Source: Pseudomonadota bacterium (GTDB taxonomy: Bacteria > Pseudomonadota > Alphaproteobacteria > Rhizobiales > Hyphomicrobiaceae). Taken from it: a stretch of 64,000 nt of DNA. This document shows, piece after piece, positions 821 to 58,684 of this stretch. Position numbers and translations under genes: made by a program. Each line of letters opens with the position of its first letter. Positions within the stretch are counted from its first letter, which is position 1. The notes beneath the pieces are model-generated. The model was not told the origin of the DNA. It was given only the letters and a program-made list of their open reading frames with translations, and made no database searches. The DNA lies in contig JAFECE010000001.1 of the NCBI GenBank assembly GCA_018242295.1, positions 186,001-250,000 on the forward strand, written 5' to 3'.

Positions 821-1735
821 TTACGAGAAGCTTCGTGCGGACTTGCCGAGCGGAAGCGCCTCGATTGTGACGGGCGATATACCGTTTTTCCAGTCTACCA
901 GGTGCGGCAGCAGATGATCATGGCCGCGACTGACTTCGAGGGCGCGCCGCACGCCTGCGATCGCGTATGCCAGCGCCTGTTCCGCCGAATCCCCGAGCAT
1001 CAGCTTGGCCGTCAGGCAGCCCGCGAAGACGTCGCCGGTGCCATGGGGAACGTCGTTCCATTTCTCGACGGTGCCCATGTAGGCCTGTTTGTTGGTGACG
1101 AGCACCGTTGCCAGCCGCGACGGTCCATCGGGTATCGAGGTACCGGCGACGACAGGTCGGCTAGGTTTTTTGTCTTTCGCGTTTTCTTCACACGAACCGG
1201 TATCCACTTCGCTTGAAAACGCCCTAAGCCGGCAAATGGCTTCGAGGGCGTCCGTCGGCGACCTGACATCGAGGCCCGAAAGCCAGGAGAGCTCGAACCG
1301 GTTCGGCGTCAGCACGTCGGCCAGCGGAACCAGGAGATCGCGGGTCGCGGCTGCCGCCTCTTCGTCGATGTAGTGGCCATTCGGATCATCGCCGAAAATT
1401 GGGTCGCAAACATAGGCGATCGATGGATTGAGCTCGCGCAGGCGCTTCACCGCGGCGGCGACGATTTCGACGTGCTGAGCGGACGGCAGGTAGCCTGAGA
1501 AAATGGCGTTGAACGATCCGAGCCAGCCGTTCTTATCGAGGGCGCCGATCATGCTTTCGAGAAGGGTCGGTTCGAGCCTCATGCCGGCCAAGTGCGGGCG
1601 GATCGGGTGGTTGGAGAGCACAACCGTCGGCAGGCCCACCACCTCGATGCCAGCCTGCTCGAGCGGCGGGATGGCCGCGGCGAGGCCCACCGGATCGCGG
1701 GCGACGTAGGAGGAAATCATCAGGATTTGCTGCAT
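821..1735 (-). CDS. pdxY: Pyridoxal kinase PdxY with an in-frame repeat insertion
   Basis: Phosphorylates pyridoxal in the vitamin B6 salvage pathway, using ATP, in the cytoplasm. The N-terminus (QQILMISSYVARDPVGLAAA) has the PfkB/ribokinase-type first strand of PdxY, CDPIFGD is at 110-116, TPNRFE at 143-148, and the anion-hole/catalytic-base motif HGTGDVFAG at 231-239. The protein is 304 residues, about 20 longer than usual. The excess matches residues 172-192, which are encoded by a palindromic repeat that elsewhere in this window is intergenic (see 1160-1222). Reading frame and C-terminus are intact, so the enzyme may still work. Divergent from the CoA-ester lyase gene with 160 bp between them. 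Function confident; activity of the interrupted protein is not known. Confidence 0.88.
   Translation of the reverse strand: MQQILMISSYVARDPVGLAAAIPPLEQAGIEVVGLPTVVLSNHPIRPHLAGMRLEPTLLESMIGALDKNGWLGSFNAIFSGYLPSAQHVEIVAAAVKRLRELNPSIAYVCDPIFGDDPNGHYIDEEAAAATRDLLVPLADVLTPNRFELSWLSGLDVRSPTDALEAICRLRAFSSEVDTGSCEENAKDKKPSRPVVAGTSIPDGPSRLATVLVTNKQAYMGTVEKWNDVPHGTGDVFAGCLTAKLMLGDSAEQALAYAIAGVRRALEVSRGHDHLLPHLVDWKNGISPVTIEALPLGKSARSFS
1160..1222 (+). repeat. Palindromic element, copy A, inside pdxY
   Basis: About 63 bp nearly identical to 57421-57486. The core at 1179-1222 is bounded by inverted 8-mers GCGTTTTC and GAAAACGC and contains the AACCGGTATCCACTT block. It contributes 21 codons without a stop to pdxY, read on the opposite strand. 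Copies B (57421) and C (7467) are outside genes, so this one most likely entered the gene as an insertion. Confidence 0.85.
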
Positions 1736-25066: not shown

Positions 25067-26659
25067 TCATCTTTTCTTTCCGGGAAGCCCGGGAAACTTC
25101 GGCATTCCGCCACCGAGGCCCGGCAGGCCCTTCGGTAGTCCGCCTCCGAGGCCGGGAAGGCCGCCGCGGCCAAAACCCGGCGGGAGGCTCGGCATTCCGC
25201 CGCCTCCGCCCGTCAGACCTTTGGTGACCTGTTCTTTGAGTTCCTCGGGAAGCTGCTCGAGCGCCTTGGGGTCGAGTTTTGCGAGCTCGGCCTGCATCGA
25301 CTGCAGTTCGGCTTCGGAAGGTCCGCCGCCGGTGCGTCCGAGGAATTTGTTCAACATGCCGCCGTTGCGGCCCATGGTTTTCATCATGTCCGCCATCTGG
25401 CGGTGCATCTTCAGAAGCTTGTTGATCTCTTCGACCTTGGTGCCGGAGCCGGAGGCGATGCGGCGTTTGCGCTTGGCGTCGAGGAGCTTGGGATTGCGAC
25501 GTTCTTTCGGCGTCATCGACGAGATAATCGCGCGCTGATGCACGAGGCTCTTGTCGAGACCGGCTTCGTTGATCTGACCTTTGATCTTGGCGACGCCGGG
25601 CAACATGCCGAGCACGCCGCCCATGCCGCCGAGCTTCTGCATCTGCTGCAATTGATCGGAAAGATCTTCGAGGTCGAACGACCCCTTCTTCATCTTCTCG
25701 GCGATCTTCGTCGCCTTCTCGACGTCGATCGTTTGCGCAGCTTTTTCGACCAGCGAGACGACGTCGCCCATGCCGAGGATGCGCGAGGCGATGCGGCCCG
25801 GGTGGAAATCTTCGAGCGCGTCCCACTTTTCGCCGACGCCGATCAGCTTGATGGGCTTGCCAGTAACGGCGCGCATCGAGAGCGCGGCGCCGCCGCGGCC
25901 GTCGCCGTCGGCGCGGGTCAGGACGATGCCGGTGACGCCGATATGGCCGTCGAAGGCTTTGGCCGTATTGACCGCGTCCTGGCCGGTAAGCGAGTCGGCA
26001 ACGAGAAGAACCTCGTGCGGATGGATCGCGGCTTTGACGTCGCGAACCTCATCCATCAACTCTTCGTCAACGGTGACGCGGCCGGCCGTGTCGTAGATGA
26101 TGACATCGAAACCGCCGAGCTTCGCTGCATCTTCGGCGCGGCGGGCGATTTGCAGCGGCGTCTGGCCGGCGATGATCGGAAGCGTCGCGACGCTCGTCTG
26201 CTCGCCGAGGACGCGCAGCTGTTCCTGTGCTGCCGGCCGCCGCGTGTCGAGCGAGGCCATCAGCACTTTCTTGCGATCGCGGTTCGTCAGGCGGTAGGCG
26301 ATCTTGGCGGTCGTCGTCGTCTTGCCCGAGCCCTGGAGGCCGACCATCAGGATGCCGACGGGCGGCGCCGCGTGGAGATCGATCGGCTGCGCATCCGAGC
26401 CCAGCATCGCCACGAGTTCGTCGTTGACGATCTTGACGACCATCTGGCCGGGCGTGACGGAACGCAGGACTTCGGCGCCGACGGCCTTGGCTTTGACCTT
26501 CTCGGTGAAATCCTTGACGACATCGAGCGCGACGTCGGCTTCGAGCAGGGCGCGGCGAACTTCGCGCATCGCCTCGACGACGTCGCTCTCGGTCAGAGCG
26601 CCGCGTCGTGTCAGCTTATCGAGGACGCCCGAGAGGCGCTCTGTCAGCGATTGAAACAT
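25067..26659 (-). CDS. ffh: Signal recognition particle protein Ffh
   Basis: GTPase that recognises signal sequences on nascent membrane proteins and hands them to FtsY. 530 residues: N domain from MFQSLTERLSGVLDKLTRRG; G domain with GLQGSGKTTTTAKIA near 108, DTRRPAAQEQL, DTAGR near 190 and TRADGDGRGG; then the Met-rich M domain (MTPKERRNPKLLDAKRKRRI near 381). The C-terminus is a Gly/Pro/Leu-rich repeat tail (FGRGGLPGLGGGLPKGLPGL), longer than in E. coli. Its receptor gene ftsY is also in the window. No SRP RNA gene was seen here. Confidence 0.97.
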   Translation of the reverse strand: MFQSLTERLSGVLDKLTRRGALTESDVVEAMREVRRALLEADVALDVVKDFTEKVKAKAVGAEVLRSVTPGQMVVKIVNDELVAMLGSDAQPIDLHAAPPVGILMVGLQGSGKTTTTAKIAYRLTNRDRKKVLMASLDTRRPAAQEQLRVLGEQTSVATLPIIAGQTPLQIARRAEDAAKLGGFDVIIYDTAGRVTVDEELMDEVRDVKAAIHPHEVLLVADSLTGQDAVNTAKAFDGHIGVTGIVLTRADGDGRGGAALSMRAVTGKPIKLIGVGEKWDALEDFHPGRIASRILGMGDVVSLVEKAAQTIDVEKATKIAEKMKKGSFDLEDLSDQLQQMQKLGGMGGVLGMLPGVAKIKGQINEAGLDKSLVHQRAIISSMTPKERRNPKLLDAKRKRRIASGSGTKVEEINKLLKMHRQMADMMKTMGRNGGMLNKFLGRTGGGPSEAELQSMQAELAKLDPKALEQLPEELKEQVTKGLTGGGGGMPSLPPGFGRGGLPGLGGGLPKGLPGLGGGMPKFPGLPGKKR

Positions 26660-27173
26660 CTAGCCTTGCGAACCCATGCTTCCTAACTCGTTTCGGTCGT
26701 CATCCCCGCGGAGGCGGGGATCCGCCCAAGCCTTGAGCCTGGATGGATCCCGGCCTTCGCCGGGATGACGGTTCATGTGGGAGCGCCCGTCCCATGCGCA
26801 AAGCCGCAAAGCACAAACGCACCCGGGAGCGCCACGCGCCGCCGGATGTTAACCCCCCTGCCTCCCGGACGCTTTTCGCGAAAAAAGGCCATGTGCAGGG
26901 CGGCGGCCACTCAAGTCAGGGCCGTCGGAATGGGGTGGGTATGGGGGAACGGGCCCTGAAAGTCAACGATGACTGGCTATCCCCAGAGAATTGGTTCCGG
27001 TTTGGCCTATGCCCTCAATTTCCAGGCGCGAGTCGTGTTGATTCGAGCCGAAAAGGCCCGCCGCGAACGGAGAAATTGCCTTTCATAGAACATTTTAAGA
27101 AATAAATATGTACAAATATAGAACGATAGGTTAAAAGCCGGCTTTGAGCCAGGCGTTTAGAAGGAAGCTCGCG
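26660..27173. other. 514-bp intergenic region between ffh and the DUF2130 gene
   Basis: Divergent promoter region for two genes. It holds the REP-like repeat at 26699-26769. The remainder has short AT-rich stretches near 27090-27130 that could contain the promoter of the DUF2130 gene. Open frames across it (for example 26743-27105) are repeat-derived and not protein-like. Confidence 0.6.
26699..26769. repeat. REP-like palindrome E1
   Basis: Two hairpin units face each other: GTCATCCCCGCGGAGGCGGGG on one side and GGATCCCGGCCTTCGCCGGGATGAC on the other (shown in overlapping parts), with outer arms GTCATCCC / GGGATGAC. A shortened relative is at 36680-36720, another at the right end of the window (63945-63993), and a related one at 58810-58910. 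Confidence 0.75.
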
Positions 27174-30520: not shown

Positions 30521-31783
30521 ATGTCCGAACCCGAAGTGATAACGCTCGGCTGCCGGCTGAATGTTTATGAATCCGAGGTAATGCGGCGTCACGCGCGCGA
30601 GGCGGGGCTTGATAACGCCGTCATCGTCAATACGTGTGCGGTGACCGGCGAGGCCGTGCGGCAGGCGGCGCAAACTGTCCGTAAGCTGCGGCGTTCGCGA
30701 CCGGACGCGCACATCATCGTTACCGGATGCGCGGCGCAGGTCGAGCCCGAACGCTTTGCCGATATGGCGGAAGTCGATCACGTCATCGGCAACGCCGAGA
30801 AGATGAAGGCCGAGACTTTCGCCGGATTGTCGACCGCGACAAGCGAGCGGGTTTTGGTCAACGACATCATGAGCGTGCGCGAGTCGGCGCTGCATATGAT
30901 CGACGGTTTCCATTCGCACACGCGGGCCTACCTGCAGATTCAGAATGGATGCGATCATCGTTGCACGTTTTGCATCATTCCGTTCGGGCGCGGGCCGTCA
31001 CGTTCGGTGCCGGCGGGCGAGGTCGTCAACCAAGTGCGTGCGCTCGTCGAGCGCGGATATTTCGAAGTCGTCTTGACGGGCGTCGACATCACGTCTTATG
31101 GCCGCGATCTGCCGGGAGCCGGGACGCTCGGTCAGCTCGTTCGCCAGGTGTTGAAGCATGTGCCGGAACTCAAGCGTCTCAGACTGTCGTCGATCGATCA
31201 AGTCGAAGCCGATCCCGATCTGATGATCGCGCTCGGCGAAGAGGAGCGGTTGATGCCGCATTTGCATCTGTCGCTTCAGGCTGGCGACGATCTCACTTTG
31301 AAGCGGATGAAGCGGCGGCATTTGCGCGCCGATGCGATTGCCTTTTGCGAGAGGGCGCGGGAGCTCAGGCCCGATGTCGTGTTCGGCGCCGATCTCATCG
31401 CGGGATTCCCAACCGAAACGGATGATATGTTCGAAAATTCTCTGAACATCGTGGATGAATGCGGACTGACCTATCTGCACGTCTTTCCCTTTTCACCGCG
31501 CCGGGGCACGCCGGCGGCGCGTATGCCGCAAGTTCCCGGAAACATCGTCAAGGAGCGCGCTGCGAGACTGCGCGTTAAGGGCGGCGCGGTGCTCAACTCG
31601 TATCTCGAAAGTCAGCGAGGACAGGTGGTCGAGGTGCTGATCGAACGAGATGGCAACGGGCGCACGCCACAATATGCCGAGGTTTTCATGGAAGGGGAAC
31701 GCGTGCACAGCGCCGGGACGATCGTTCGAACACACATCAAGGGCGCCGATGCGCTGCGGCTCGTCGGCGAGGCGGTCTCGTGA
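30521..31783 (+). CDS. mtaB: tRNA-t6A37 methylthiotransferase MtaB (MiaB-like)
   Basis: Radical-SAM enzyme that methylthiolates t6A37 of tRNAs. 420 residues: N-terminal cluster cysteines Cys11 (TLGCRLN), Cys39 (VNTCAVT) and Cys70 (VTGCAAQ); radical-SAM motif NGCDHRCTFCIIPFGRGPSR near 144; C-terminal TRAM region from about residue 360. The RGPSRS stretch after the radical-SAM motif favours MtaB over MiaB. Its last four bases overlap the ftsY start, implying translational coupling. Confidence 0.92.
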   Translation: MSEPEVITLGCRLNVYESEVMRRHAREAGLDNAVIVNTCAVTGEAVRQAAQTVRKLRRSRPDAHIIVTGCAAQVEPERFADMAEVDHVIGNAEKMKAETFAGLSTATSERVLVNDIMSVRESALHMIDGFHSHTRAYLQIQNGCDHRCTFCIIPFGRGPSRSVPAGEVVNQVRALVERGYFEVVLTGVDITSYGRDLPGAGTLGQLVRQVLKHVPELKRLRLSSIDQVEADPDLMIALGEEERLMPHLHLSLQAGDDLTLKRMKRRHLRADAIAFCERARELRPDVVFGADLIAGFPTETDDMFENSLNIVDECGLTYLHVFPFSPRRGTPAARMPQVPGNIVKERAARLRVKGGAVLNSYLESQRGQVVEVLIERDGNGRTPQYAEVFMEGERVHSAGTIVRTHIKGADALRLVGEAVS

Positions 31784-36793: not shown

Positions 36794-36896
36794 AAGTCCC
36801 TCACCTGCCCTCCGGGCATCCTCTCCCGTACCGGGAGAGGAGATCCTTCCTTCTCCCACAGGGAGAAGGTGGCCGAAGGCCGGATGAGGGGCTTTA
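36794..36896. repeat. Intergenic repeat D1
   Basis: About 100 bp with two hairpins: CTCTCCCGTACCGGGAGAG and CTTCTCCCACAGGGAGAAG, bordered by AAGTCCCTCACCTGCC and GGATGAGGGGCTTT. Two more copies are at 45064-45170 and 45192-45340. It abuts the 3' end of leuB, and a short REP-like remnant precedes it at 36680-36720. Confidence 0.8.
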
Positions 36897-45063: not shown

Positions 45064-45170
45064 TAAGTCCTTCACCTGCCCTTCGGGCATCCTCTCCCGT
45101 CCCGGGAGAGGAAAGCTCTTCCTTCTCCCTTGGGGAGAAGGTGCCCCGAAGGGGCGGATGAGGGGCTTTT
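45064..45170. repeat. Intergenic repeat D2
   Basis: Full-length copy of the D family with hairpins CTCTCCCGTCCCGGGAGAG and CTTCTCCCTTGGGGAGAAG and the ending CGGATGAGGGGCTTTT. Lies 22 bp from copy D3 in the same orientation. Confidence 0.85.
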
Positions 45171-45191: not shown

Positions 45192-45340
45192 CAAGTCCCT
45201 CACCTGCCTATCTCGCCGAAGGCGAGCCTCCGGCTCAACCTTCAAAAGCGAGCCTCCGGCTCGACGGGCATCCTCTCCCGTTCCGGGAGAGGAAAGCTGA
45301 TCCTTCTCCCAAGGGAGAAGGTGCCCCGCAGGGGCGGATG
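45192..45340. repeat. Intergenic repeat D3, expanded and truncated
   Basis: Same family as D2, but a 50-bp segment is inserted after ACCTGCC and contains two tandem copies of GCGAGCCTCCGGCTC. The 3' end stops at GGGGCGGATG, directly at the typA stop codon, where other copies continue with AGGGGCTTTT. Confidence 0.85.
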
Positions 45341-52510: not shown

Positions 52511-52545
52511 GGGTGCCTCCAGTTCGAGCTTTCGGTTGCAGAATC

Positions 52546-52598
52546 ATCCTTTAATAGTGGACTGCGTTATTAAAGGATGTGACCCTATCCTTTAATAG
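52546..52598. promoter_or_regulatory. Three-copy ATCCTTTAATA array (operator-like)
   Basis: Copies of ATCCTTTAATA at 52546-52556, inverted at 52568-52578, and at 52587-52597, with centres 22 and 19 bp apart, close to two helical turns. The array begins 36 bp upstream of the small membrane protein start. Copies 1 and 3 extend to a 12-mer by a following G. Confidence 0.6.
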
Positions 52599-52742
52599 CG
52601 AAAACCGCGATGACAGGTGAGAAGCACGCTAGCTCCCGCGTGGGGACATTCTCTTCGACGGTGGCCCTTGGCGAGAGGGTAAGGTGCTATGTGCCGTGTC
52701 CGCTGCCTCCAGATCCGCCGCTCGATCTTGCCCGGCAGATAC

Positions 52743-52771
52743 TTGACGAAGGGACAGAGCCCCTTCGTCAA
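52743..52771 (-). terminator. Stem-loop after argG
   Basis: Perfect 11-bp stem TTGACGAAGGG / CCCTTCGTCAA with a 7-base loop, 25 bp past the argG stop. No T-run follows on the - strand, so termination may be weak or Rho-assisted. Confidence 0.55.
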
Positions 52772-52796
52772 TCCGAATAGCCATCACGTACTGTGG

Positions 52797-54032
52797 TCAG
52801 CTTGAGGTTTTGTTTCGCTGTCCAAGGGTGCGCAAGCGCAGAGCGTTGAGCTTGATGAAGCCTTCCGCGTCCTTCTGGTCGTAAGCGCCCTTGTCGTCCT
52901 CGAACGTCACGAGTGTTGGCGAATAGAGCGACTTCGTGCTTTCGCGGCCGACGACGATGACGTTGCCCTTGTAAAGCTCGAGGGTGACTTCGCCTTCGAC
53001 GTTTTCCTGGCTCTTGTCGATCAGCGCCTGCAGCATCTCGCGCTCCGGCGAGAACCAGAAGCCGTTATAGATCAGCTCGGCGTAGCGCGGCATGATCTCG
53101 TCTTTGAGATGAGCGGCGCCGCGGTCGAGTGTCAGGCTTTCGATGGCGCGGTGGGCCGCAAGCAGGATCGTACCGCCGGGGGTCTCGTAGACGCCGCGCG
53201 ATTTCATGCCGACGAAACGGTTCTCGACGAGGTCGATGCGGCCGATGCCGTTGTCGCGTCCGAGATCGTTCAGCGCTTTCAGCAGCGTTGCGGGCGAAAG
53301 TTTCTTGCCGTCGATCGAAACGGGGTCGCCCTTTACGAAGCCGATCTTGATCGTCGTCACCTTGTCGGGCGCGCTCATCGGCGAAATGGTGCGCTGGTAG
53401 ACGACCTCGGGCGGCTTCTTCGCCGGGTCTTCGAGAACTTTGCCTTCGGATGAGGAGTGCAGAAGGTTGGCGTCGACCGAGAACGGGCTCTCGCCTTCCT
53501 TGTCCTTGGCGACGGGAATCTGGTTCCTGCGGGCGAAGTCCAGAAGGTCTTCGCGGCCCTTGAATGTCCACTCGCGCCAGGGGGCGATGATCTTGATGCC
53601 GGGCTCCAGTGAATAATAGCCGAGCTCGAACCTCACCTGGTCATTGCCCTTGCCCGTTGCGCCATGGCAAACCGCGTCGGCACCGACTTTGCGGGCGATC
53701 TCGATCTGCTTCTTCGCGATCAGCGGGCGGGCGATCGACGTGCCGAGCAAATAAACGCCTTCGTAGACGGTGTTGGCGCGAAACATCGGGAAGACGAAAT
53801 CGCGGACGAATTCTTCGCGCAGGTCTTCGATGAAGATGTTTTCTTCCTTGATGCCGAGCATCAGGGCTTTCTTGCGGGCGGGCTCCAGCTCTTCGCCTTG
53901 GCCGAGATCGGCAGTGAACGTCACGACTTCGGCGCCGTAGGTCTCTTGCAGCCACTTGAGGATGATCGAAGTGTCCAATCCGCCGGAATAGGCGAGAACG
54001 ACCTTTTTCACGGACTTCGGCGCGGCGCTCAT
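52797..54032 (-). CDS. argG: Argininosuccinate synthase
   Basis: Condenses citrulline and aspartate in arginine synthesis. 411 residues. ATP pyrophosphatase motif [20 protein letters not shown] near 12, [20 protein letters not shown] near 124 and [20 protein letters not shown] near 261. The ending [14 protein letters not shown] is typical of alphaproteobacterial forms. Confidence 0.96.
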
Positions 54033-57420: not shown

Positions 57421-57486
57421 GCTAGGGGTTTTGATTTGTCGCGTTTTCTTCACGCGAACCGGCATCCACTTCGCTTGAAAACGCTC
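57421..57486 (+). repeat. Palindromic element, copy B, in the 56647-57327 gene leader
   Basis: Core 57441-57484 with arms GCGTTTTC and GAAAACGC. It is nearly identical to copy A in pdxY. Lies between the rlmN stop codon (57491) and the membrane-protein start. Confidence 0.85.
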
Positions 57487-57490
57487 CGGG

Positions 57491-58684
57491 TCAGCCGCCT
57501 TGCGAAAGGGCGTTTCGCGCACTCGCGGAGAGCTTCAGGCTCTCGGACCTAAGTTGCCCGCAGGCCGCAAGAATATCGCGGCCACGGGGCGTGCGGACGG
57601 GGCTTGCGTAGCCGGCGCGATTTACGACATCCGCAAATCGCTCGATCGTCTCCCAATCGGAACACTCGTAGCGGGTGTTCGGCCAGGGATTGAACGGGAT
57701 TAAGTTGATTTTGGCCGGGATACCAGAGAGGAGCTTCACGAGCGCCCGGGCCTCGGCAAGGCTGTCGTTGACGCCCTTCAGCATGACGTATTCGAACGTG
57801 ATACGGCGCGCGTTCGAAAGCCCCGGATAGTTTCGGCAGGCTTCCATCAGCTCGGCGATCGGATACTTCCGGTTCAACGGAACGAGCTCATCGCGCAGCG
57901 CATCGTTCGTTGCGTGCAGCGAGATGGCGAGCATGGTGTCGGCTTCTTCGCCCCAACGCGGGACTTCGGGCACGACGCCCGAGGTCGAGAGGGTGATGCG
58001 TCGCTTTGAGAGCGACAGGCCATCGCCGTCGGACGCAATCTCCATCGCGGCTTTGACGTTGTCGAAATTGTAAAGCGGCTCGCCCATGCCCATCAGCACG
58101 ACGTTCGTTATCTTGCGCTCGCTTTGCGGAAGGAGGCGGCCATCGTCCGGACCTTTTGCGCCGGGCCAATCGCCGATGCGGTCGCGGGCCAGCATGATCT
58201 GGCCGACGATTTCTTCCGCTTCGAGATTGCGCACGAGCTTCTGAGTGCCGGTGTGGCAGAACGAGCAATTCAGCGTGCAGCCGACCTGGCTCGAGATGCA
58301 GAGCGTGCCGCGGTCGCTTTCGGGGATGTAGACGGTTTCGATTTCGGGCGCGCGGGCTTCGTGGCCGCGTTTGGGAAGCCTGAGGAGCCACTTGCGCGTG
58401 CCGTCGACGGAGATCTGCTCGGAGATGATCTCGGGACGATCCAACGTGTACAGCTCTTCGAGCTGGCGGCGCAGATCCTTCGACACGTCCGTCATGTCTT
58501 CGAAGCGGGTGACGCCGCGCACGTAGATCCAGCTCCAGAGCTGGCCGACGCGCATGCGAAGCTGCTTTTCGGGAACGCCGGCAGCCGCGAGCGCCACTTT
58601 CAAGCGGTCACGCGTCAGGCCCGCGAGCGAGAGCTTCGCGGCGGGCCGGTCGGTGTCGATCTTGAGCAAAGGCGCGGCGGTCAT
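57491..58684 (-). CDS. rlmN: Dual-specificity rRNA/tRNA methyltransferase RlmN
   Basis: Radical-SAM enzyme that makes m2A2503 in 23S rRNA and m2A37 in tRNAs. 397 residues. The radical-SAM cysteines are in [11 protein letters not shown] near 141; [11 protein letters not shown] precedes it. The methyl-carrier and catalytic Cys region lies in [16 protein letters not shown] and near the C-terminus ([22 protein letters not shown]). Normal length. Confidence 0.95.

Follow-up and report, generated by a model that had tools for sequence, protein, structure and literature searches.

A palindromic repeat inserted in frame in pdxY of a Hyphomicrobium-like bacterium and distributed against the species tree

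The pyridoxal kinase gene pdxY of a Hyphomicrobium-like bacterium carries an in-frame copy of a dispersed palindromic repeat that adds exactly 21 codons to the enzyme (Table 1). The gene lies in a 64,000-nt stretch of the genome G000 (11 contigs, 4.05 Mb), and by the window we mean this whole stretch. The insert is shared with three congeners, G001, G003 and G020 (clade 2), and missing from the closer relatives G014 and G018, in conflict with the species tree. Judging from sequence comparison, the repeat likely entered pdxY in a single insertion that was tolerated, and the G000 lineage would have received its copy later from a G020-like donor through a recombination tract of approximately 90 bp. 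More tentatively, we propose that coding copies of palindromic repeats may spread between species via very short homologous recombination, without new transposition, as illustrated by the pdxY insert and approximately 28 bp of its flank passing from a G020-like donor to G000.

Table 1. Coordinates of the features discussed, given as positions in the window
Feature	Position	Strand	Remarks
pdxY, pyridoxal kinase	821-1735	minus	ORF of 304 aa including the insert; GTGD at residues 232-235
Insert in pdxY, AFSSEVDTGSCEENAKDKKPS, codons 172-192	1160-1222	minus	Consists of one module of the palindromic repeat family
Hairpin arm GCGTTTTC	1179-1186	plus	Part of the pdxY insert
Hairpin arm GAAAACGC	1215-1222	plus	Part of the pdxY insert
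Left border tetranucleotide CTAG	1161-1164		ATAG in G001, ATAA in G003
Right border tetranucleotide CTAA	1224-1227		63 bp from the left border
Flank where G000 resembles G020, not its sister G014	1223-1250		7 sites to 1; together with the insert, the putative recombination tract
Second copy of the repeat family	57421-57487	plus	Just beyond the stop of ORF 57491-58684(-), which we take to be rlmN-like by eye; site empty in G014, G018, G001, G003 and G020
Diverged relative of the repeat family, 43.8 bits	7464-7525	plus	Present in G000 and G014, absent from G018 and G003

Position and occurrence of the insert in pdxY

The identity of the host gene as a pyridoxal kinase was upheld by profile searches, its product passing the cut-off of the pyridoxal kinase family TIGR00687 (149.5 versus 144.5 bits) and scoring below that of the PdxY-specific NF004398 (184.3 versus 292 bits). 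This ORF was the sole PdxY match in its own genome at E ≤ 0.001, and the solved structures related to it by sequence are named either pyridoxal kinase (1lhp, 2yxt) or PdxY (5b6a, 5trw).

A sequence-only reading of the window had proposed that residues 172-192 of this protein stem from a 63-bp palindromic element with two hairpin arms, and that the protein would be of normal size, about 283 residues, without it. Alignment of six syntenic genomes, in which the gene order around pdxY is kept, confirmed that the insert occupies exactly 63 columns, that is 21 codons, in phase 0, and both arms were found within it. A PdxY search of 60 genomes, G000 included, yielded matches in 55, and 30 loci, again including that of G000, were fetched and aligned. 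The PdxY frame was open at all 30 loci. At four of them (G000 and its congeners G020, G001 and G003), the 21 residues were present at the same position, flanked by residues that end in RL on one side and by RPVVAGTSIP on the other, while no residues occupied this position at the remaining 26; these congeners aside, no orthologue in the set shares the segment. The sister genome G014 (L012, the same locus as L038) encodes a PdxY of 283 aa that lacks exactly the 21 residues, in agreement with the size expected.

The repeat family: copies, context and mobility

Within G000, the pdxY insert matched the copy at 57421-57486 with 89% identity (E 2.8e-17). The match between the two elements is thus real, and only its earlier description as almost base for base was slightly generous, as 59 positions align without gaps at 88% identity. 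The core of the insert recurs in the rest of the genome as well: BLAST returned seven matches, the insert itself counted, and a covariance model built from seven copies returned 25 at E ≤ 0.1, ten of them at 77-91 bits and 15 weaker ones at 28-44 bits, among which several belong to visibly different subfamilies. The same model found matches in 14 of 22 genomes of the genus (E ≤ 0.1). Of 150 genomes sampled across the order, 74 had a match at E ≤ 0.001, and these represent 47 of 89 genera. Eight of 72,556 plasmid records were matched by BLAST, in Bradyrhizobium, Xanthobacter, Sinorhizobium, Asticcacaulis and Bosea; none of their eight best places lay under an annotated gene, in a gene table that is incomplete.

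The module measures approximately 59 bp between YTAR-like tetranucleotides and comprises a hairpin and a T-rich tail. Many copies, unlike the single module in pdxY, are preceded by a second hairpin module of approximately 40 bp that starts with TAGAGC and ends with GCTCTA. On the strand read in pdxY, folding was better than in shuffled sequences, with z-scores of -2.8 for the pdxY insert and -3.3 for the 57421 copy, and less clearly so on the opposite strand (-1.2 and -0.8, respectively). A two-module composite, made up of the hairpin TAGAGCGTTTCC... plus AGCCTTTTGTTTTGACGC..., occurs in eight closely similar copies in G000 (L086-L091, L093 and L094, on contigs C2, C3, C5 and C11), which suggests that it has spread as a unit. 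Head-to-tail arrays of modules were observed at G089:C1:3419501-3419692, G125:C2:24202-24390 and G005:C7:106637-106860, with periods of 64, 63 and 54 bp, respectively. An Rfam covariance search at gathering score, covering the 64-kb window and five loci with copies, placed no family on any repeat copy, and the literature searched held no name for the repeat family, short strings of the element matching no paper.

The sole Rfam match in the window was the ffh sRNA (RF01793) at 26812-26864 on the minus strand, upstream of ORF 25067-26659(-), which we take to be Ffh-like by eye. Other repeats were also seen there. A 71-nt repeat, CCTGCCCTCCGGGCATCCTCTCCCGTACCGGGAGAGGA..., occupies 36804-36874, 45075-45145 and 45256-45326, the second and third copies sharing 72% and 75% identity with the first. 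At 52511-52810, G000 has approximately 300 bp in which a ATCCTTTAATAG motif recurs, where G018 has approximately 33 bp between the same flanks and G014, G003, G001 and G020 have approximately 1.83-1.86 kb, making this another patchy segment.

The ORF context was inspected at 70 repeat loci (26 + 27 + 17; those outside G000 being the best matches listed), considering ORFs of at least 90 aa with raised third-position GC, limited to the best two or three at each locus. None but the four pdxY copies lay inside a gene recognized by homology, a count for which the covering ORFs at L088, L091, L093, L100, L065 and L158 were left out of the homology check. Covering ORFs at L078, L061, L070, L161, L152, L154 and L164 had no Pfam match. 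At L076, L083, L150 and L156, the Pfam domain starts after the element, and the actual start may be located beyond it. Opposite-strand ORFs were seen to end at the element border, with the terminal TAG as the would-be stop, at L086, L088, L089, L090, L093, L094, L095, L098, L151, L160 and L165; insertion at stop codons may keep such insertions harmless.

Of the 22 strong copies, 17 leave the frame read in pdxY open, or 13 of 18 when the four pdxY copies are set aside; for the remaining five frames, the number of open copies ranges from 2 to 19. Given a length divisible by three, an open passage through a gene is therefore not improbable.

Seven aligned sites, pdxY among them, carry the element in some congeners and lack it in others, indicating that the repeat family has been mobile within the genus, actively or passively. 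The site at 57421 is filled in G000 only, G001:C3:625490 in G001 only, and C3:169909 in both G000 and G014. At G000:C3:161549, the pdxY-type element occurs only in G014, and G003, G001 and G020 have other repeats there. The occupancy of the 7464 site (Table 1) comes from an alignment without G001 and G020; since a model match in G020 (C9:87705) lies at a similar distance from pdxY of that genome, the site may be patchy too. Near G018:C3:357458 (with orthologous sites in L105, L109, L112 and L115), the element is present in G018, G003 and G001 and absent from G000, G014 and G020, again against the species tree. It immediately precedes a possible ATG start there.

The tetranucleotides bordering the pdxY insert fit a YTAR target duplication and, by their sequence, may represent one; the empty pdxY alleles have CCCA or CCGA at the target, not YTAR. 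A general 4-bp YTAR duplication at every insertion was not upheld on the seven sites, with 57421 and G001:C3:625490 showing no plain fit. The element presumably entered by transposition. RAYT-type mobilization was unsupported, as the Y1 transposase (Y1_Tnp, PF01797) was found in none of 10 genus genomes, G000 included, and in five of the 14 genomes of a control set. The DUF4096 transposase (PF13340), which we take to mark the IS427 group, was detected in five of the 10 genus genomes, four of them above cut-off, and was absent from G000 in the same profile search. Among seven DUF4096 loci scanned for TAGAGC and GCTCTA, two (L147 and L148) contained both, a link to the repeat being unproven. This search and scan, which were non-exhaustive, did not identify a parent insertion sequence for the family.

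History of the insert and its effect on the kinase

In a tree of 13 genomes, based on the protein encoded at 30521-31783 (which we take to be MtaB-like by eye), G000 grouped with G014 (95/93), G018 joined this pair (92/93), and G001, G003 and G020 formed a clade of their own (98/97). At the 230 fixed differences between G014 and G018 on one side and clade 2 on the other in a 4-kb alignment, G000 goes with its own clade at 185, with clade 2 at 25 and with neither at 20. Outside the insert, pdxY of G000 differs from that of G020, G001 and G003 at 181, 191 and 199 of 852 sites, and at 109, 119 and 128 of 284 third positions, respectively. The inserts themselves differ at 4, 5 and 7 of 63 sites, compared with approximately 14-17 expected when scaled by clade-2 rates (P 0.0002-0.003 per pair, the pairs being non-independent). 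Within clade 2, they differ at 5, 7 and 6 of 63 sites, matching the divergence of the gene.

The flank on one side of the insert resembles clade 2 as well. Positions 1223-1250 hold seven states that G000 shares only with G020 and one shared only with G014, versus 33 and 131 elsewhere in the gene, 1090-1159 and 1251-1320 included. Across 3,414 windows of 24 sites, the top excess of G000-G020 over G000-G014 likeness fell in three overlapping windows starting at 1223-1225. The same place led when G003 replaced G020, and with G001 seven windows shared the maximum, including a distant one (656-679). An insert closer to clade 2 than expected and a flank like that of G020 together argue for a single insertion with later recombination into G000. 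Some evidence points the other way: few sites support the tract, only 1225 and 1246 among the 25 clade-2-like fixed sites in G000 adjoining the insert, and the clade-2 inserts differ from each other as much as from that of G000.

According to the history we favor, a repeat copy would have inserted once into pdxY on the stem of the clade of G001, G003 and G020. With a length of 63 bp, and in a frame that family members often leave open, it would have preserved the reading frame, yielding a kinase with 21 additional residues. The insert would then have drifted, with the kinase still under purifying selection, and a later transfer would have brought it into the G000 lineage.

The main rival, which we regard as unlikely, places the insertion in the ancestor of all six close relatives, followed by precise, independent loss in G014 and G018, whether the element was excised or replaced through recombination with an allele lacking it. 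Such losses would account for insert-bearing genomes that form no clade on the species tree, and the site near G018:C3:357458 offers a second distribution of this kind. Against them, the G000 insert is much more similar to clade 2 than the rest of pdxY, and G014 and G018 have GGA CGC at the junction, encoding Gly-Arg as in the uninserted L017, L020, L021 and L035, with no excision remnant. Alternatively, the element could have arrived twice at the same nucleotide, for which REPs at about the same site in recB of X. campestris and X. oryzae, described in the available text of PMC3733652, provide a precedent. We consider this very improbable, since the pdxY inserts of G000 and G020 have the tail GTTTTTTGTCT in common, which recurs in slightly altered form in G001 and G003 and is absent from the other nine strong G000 copies; bases of one flank are shared, too.

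The comparison of sequences suggests that the 21 residues are probably tolerated, not functional. Outside the insert, dN/dS of pdxY was 0.09-0.19 in all 15 pairs among the six genomes, indicating that the enzyme is maintained. Inside it, the six filled pairs showed 3.5-7 nonsynonymous and 0-1.5 synonymous changes each, counts that are small and come from non-independent pairs; no purifying selection was visible on the insert in these pairs, with little power at 63 bp. Recruitment of the segment for a function in PdxY, for example as a loop serving regulation or interaction, would agree with an insert still open in four genomes at a pdxY dS of up to 0.98. The changes counted inside the insert, read with the same low power, and the absence of the segment from close relatives that retain pdxY make such a role improbable.

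In the ribokinase-like fold, a turn connects a helix with the strand running to the TS motif of the ATP site. We presume that the PdxY insert sits at this helix-to-strand turn, which by analogy with such kinases would place it on the protein surface. An AlphaFold2 run on the PdxY of the window, with L038 as the only other row, reached a mean pLDDT of 44 and a pTM of 0.40, and the model was not used.

Relation to known palindromic repeats

Several alphaproteobacterial repeats, namely Bru-RS, Caulobacter CIR, rhizobial RIME and Br-REP, are intergenic palindromic or mosaic elements, as is most of the family described here. The two-module copies, with their hairpin of approximately 40 bp ahead of the module, resemble Bru-RS (103-105 bp; PMC2267715) in size, and repeats such as Bru-RS and RIME (PMC2573895) may be related to the pdxY repeat family. 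The Br-REP1 and Br-REP2 consensus, as given in the accessible part of PMC5082802, shows no resemblance to the pdxY module by eye. Brucella IS711 is reported, in the available text of PMC2266754, to target YTAR and to favor Bru-RS, which we take as a lead on the kind of target and nothing more. Similarly, the MITEs ERIC/RU-1, YPAL/RU-2 and NEMIS are described in the available text of PMC2229807 as small, structured and mostly intergenic, with occasional in-frame fusions and, in several cases, TA ends. The pdxY repeat shares its small size, structure, mostly intergenic location and in-frame case with them, and differs in that our non-exhaustive search identified no parent insertion sequence.

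Closer parallels come from repeats known inside genes. REPs of the GTAG/CGTC type occur inside ORFs, also in free-living bacteria, where they insert 20-30 residues, and their ends often supply TAG stops (PMC3733652, in its available text). The pdxY element is likewise a palindromic repeat inside an ORF; compared by description, however, REPs are units of 20-40 bp tagged GTAG or CGTC, whereas the module here spans approximately 59 bp between YTAR-like tetranucleotides. Rickettsia palindromic elements (RPEs) are dispersed palindromic repeats found both between genes and in frame within genes for conserved proteins, and one RPE-bearing product, Gmk, is reported to be translated and active with altered substrate affinity (PMC2229807 and PMC10969869, as far as the available text describes them).

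The pdxY repeat presents the same picture outside Rickettsia, being dispersed and mostly intergenic, with one in-frame, stop-free and apparently tolerated copy in a conserved gene. It differs from RPEs, to which it is likened by description, in its length of 63 bp instead of 105-146 bp and in being found in one gene, where RPEs occupy many Rickettsia genes. The earlier proposal of an RPE-like case in another lineage is therefore supported with three qualifications: the insert is shared with three congeners against the species tree, cases beyond Rickettsia have already been reported among REPs (PMC3733652), and the proposed position on the protein surface is presumed from the general kinase fold.

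Because RPEs and intragenic REPs already establish the phenomenon, what is new here is not the type of event but the repeat family, its host lineage and a history that could be resolved. Our findings extend what is known from Rickettsia and REPs to a further repeat family, and indicate that the distribution of an insert inside a gene can run counter to the species tree. The same enzyme with and without a repeat-derived segment of 21 residues, in close relatives with conserved synteny, constitutes a clean natural experiment, in which the cost, tolerance and fate of a coding palindromic insert of the kind seen in RPEs and REPs become directly measurable.
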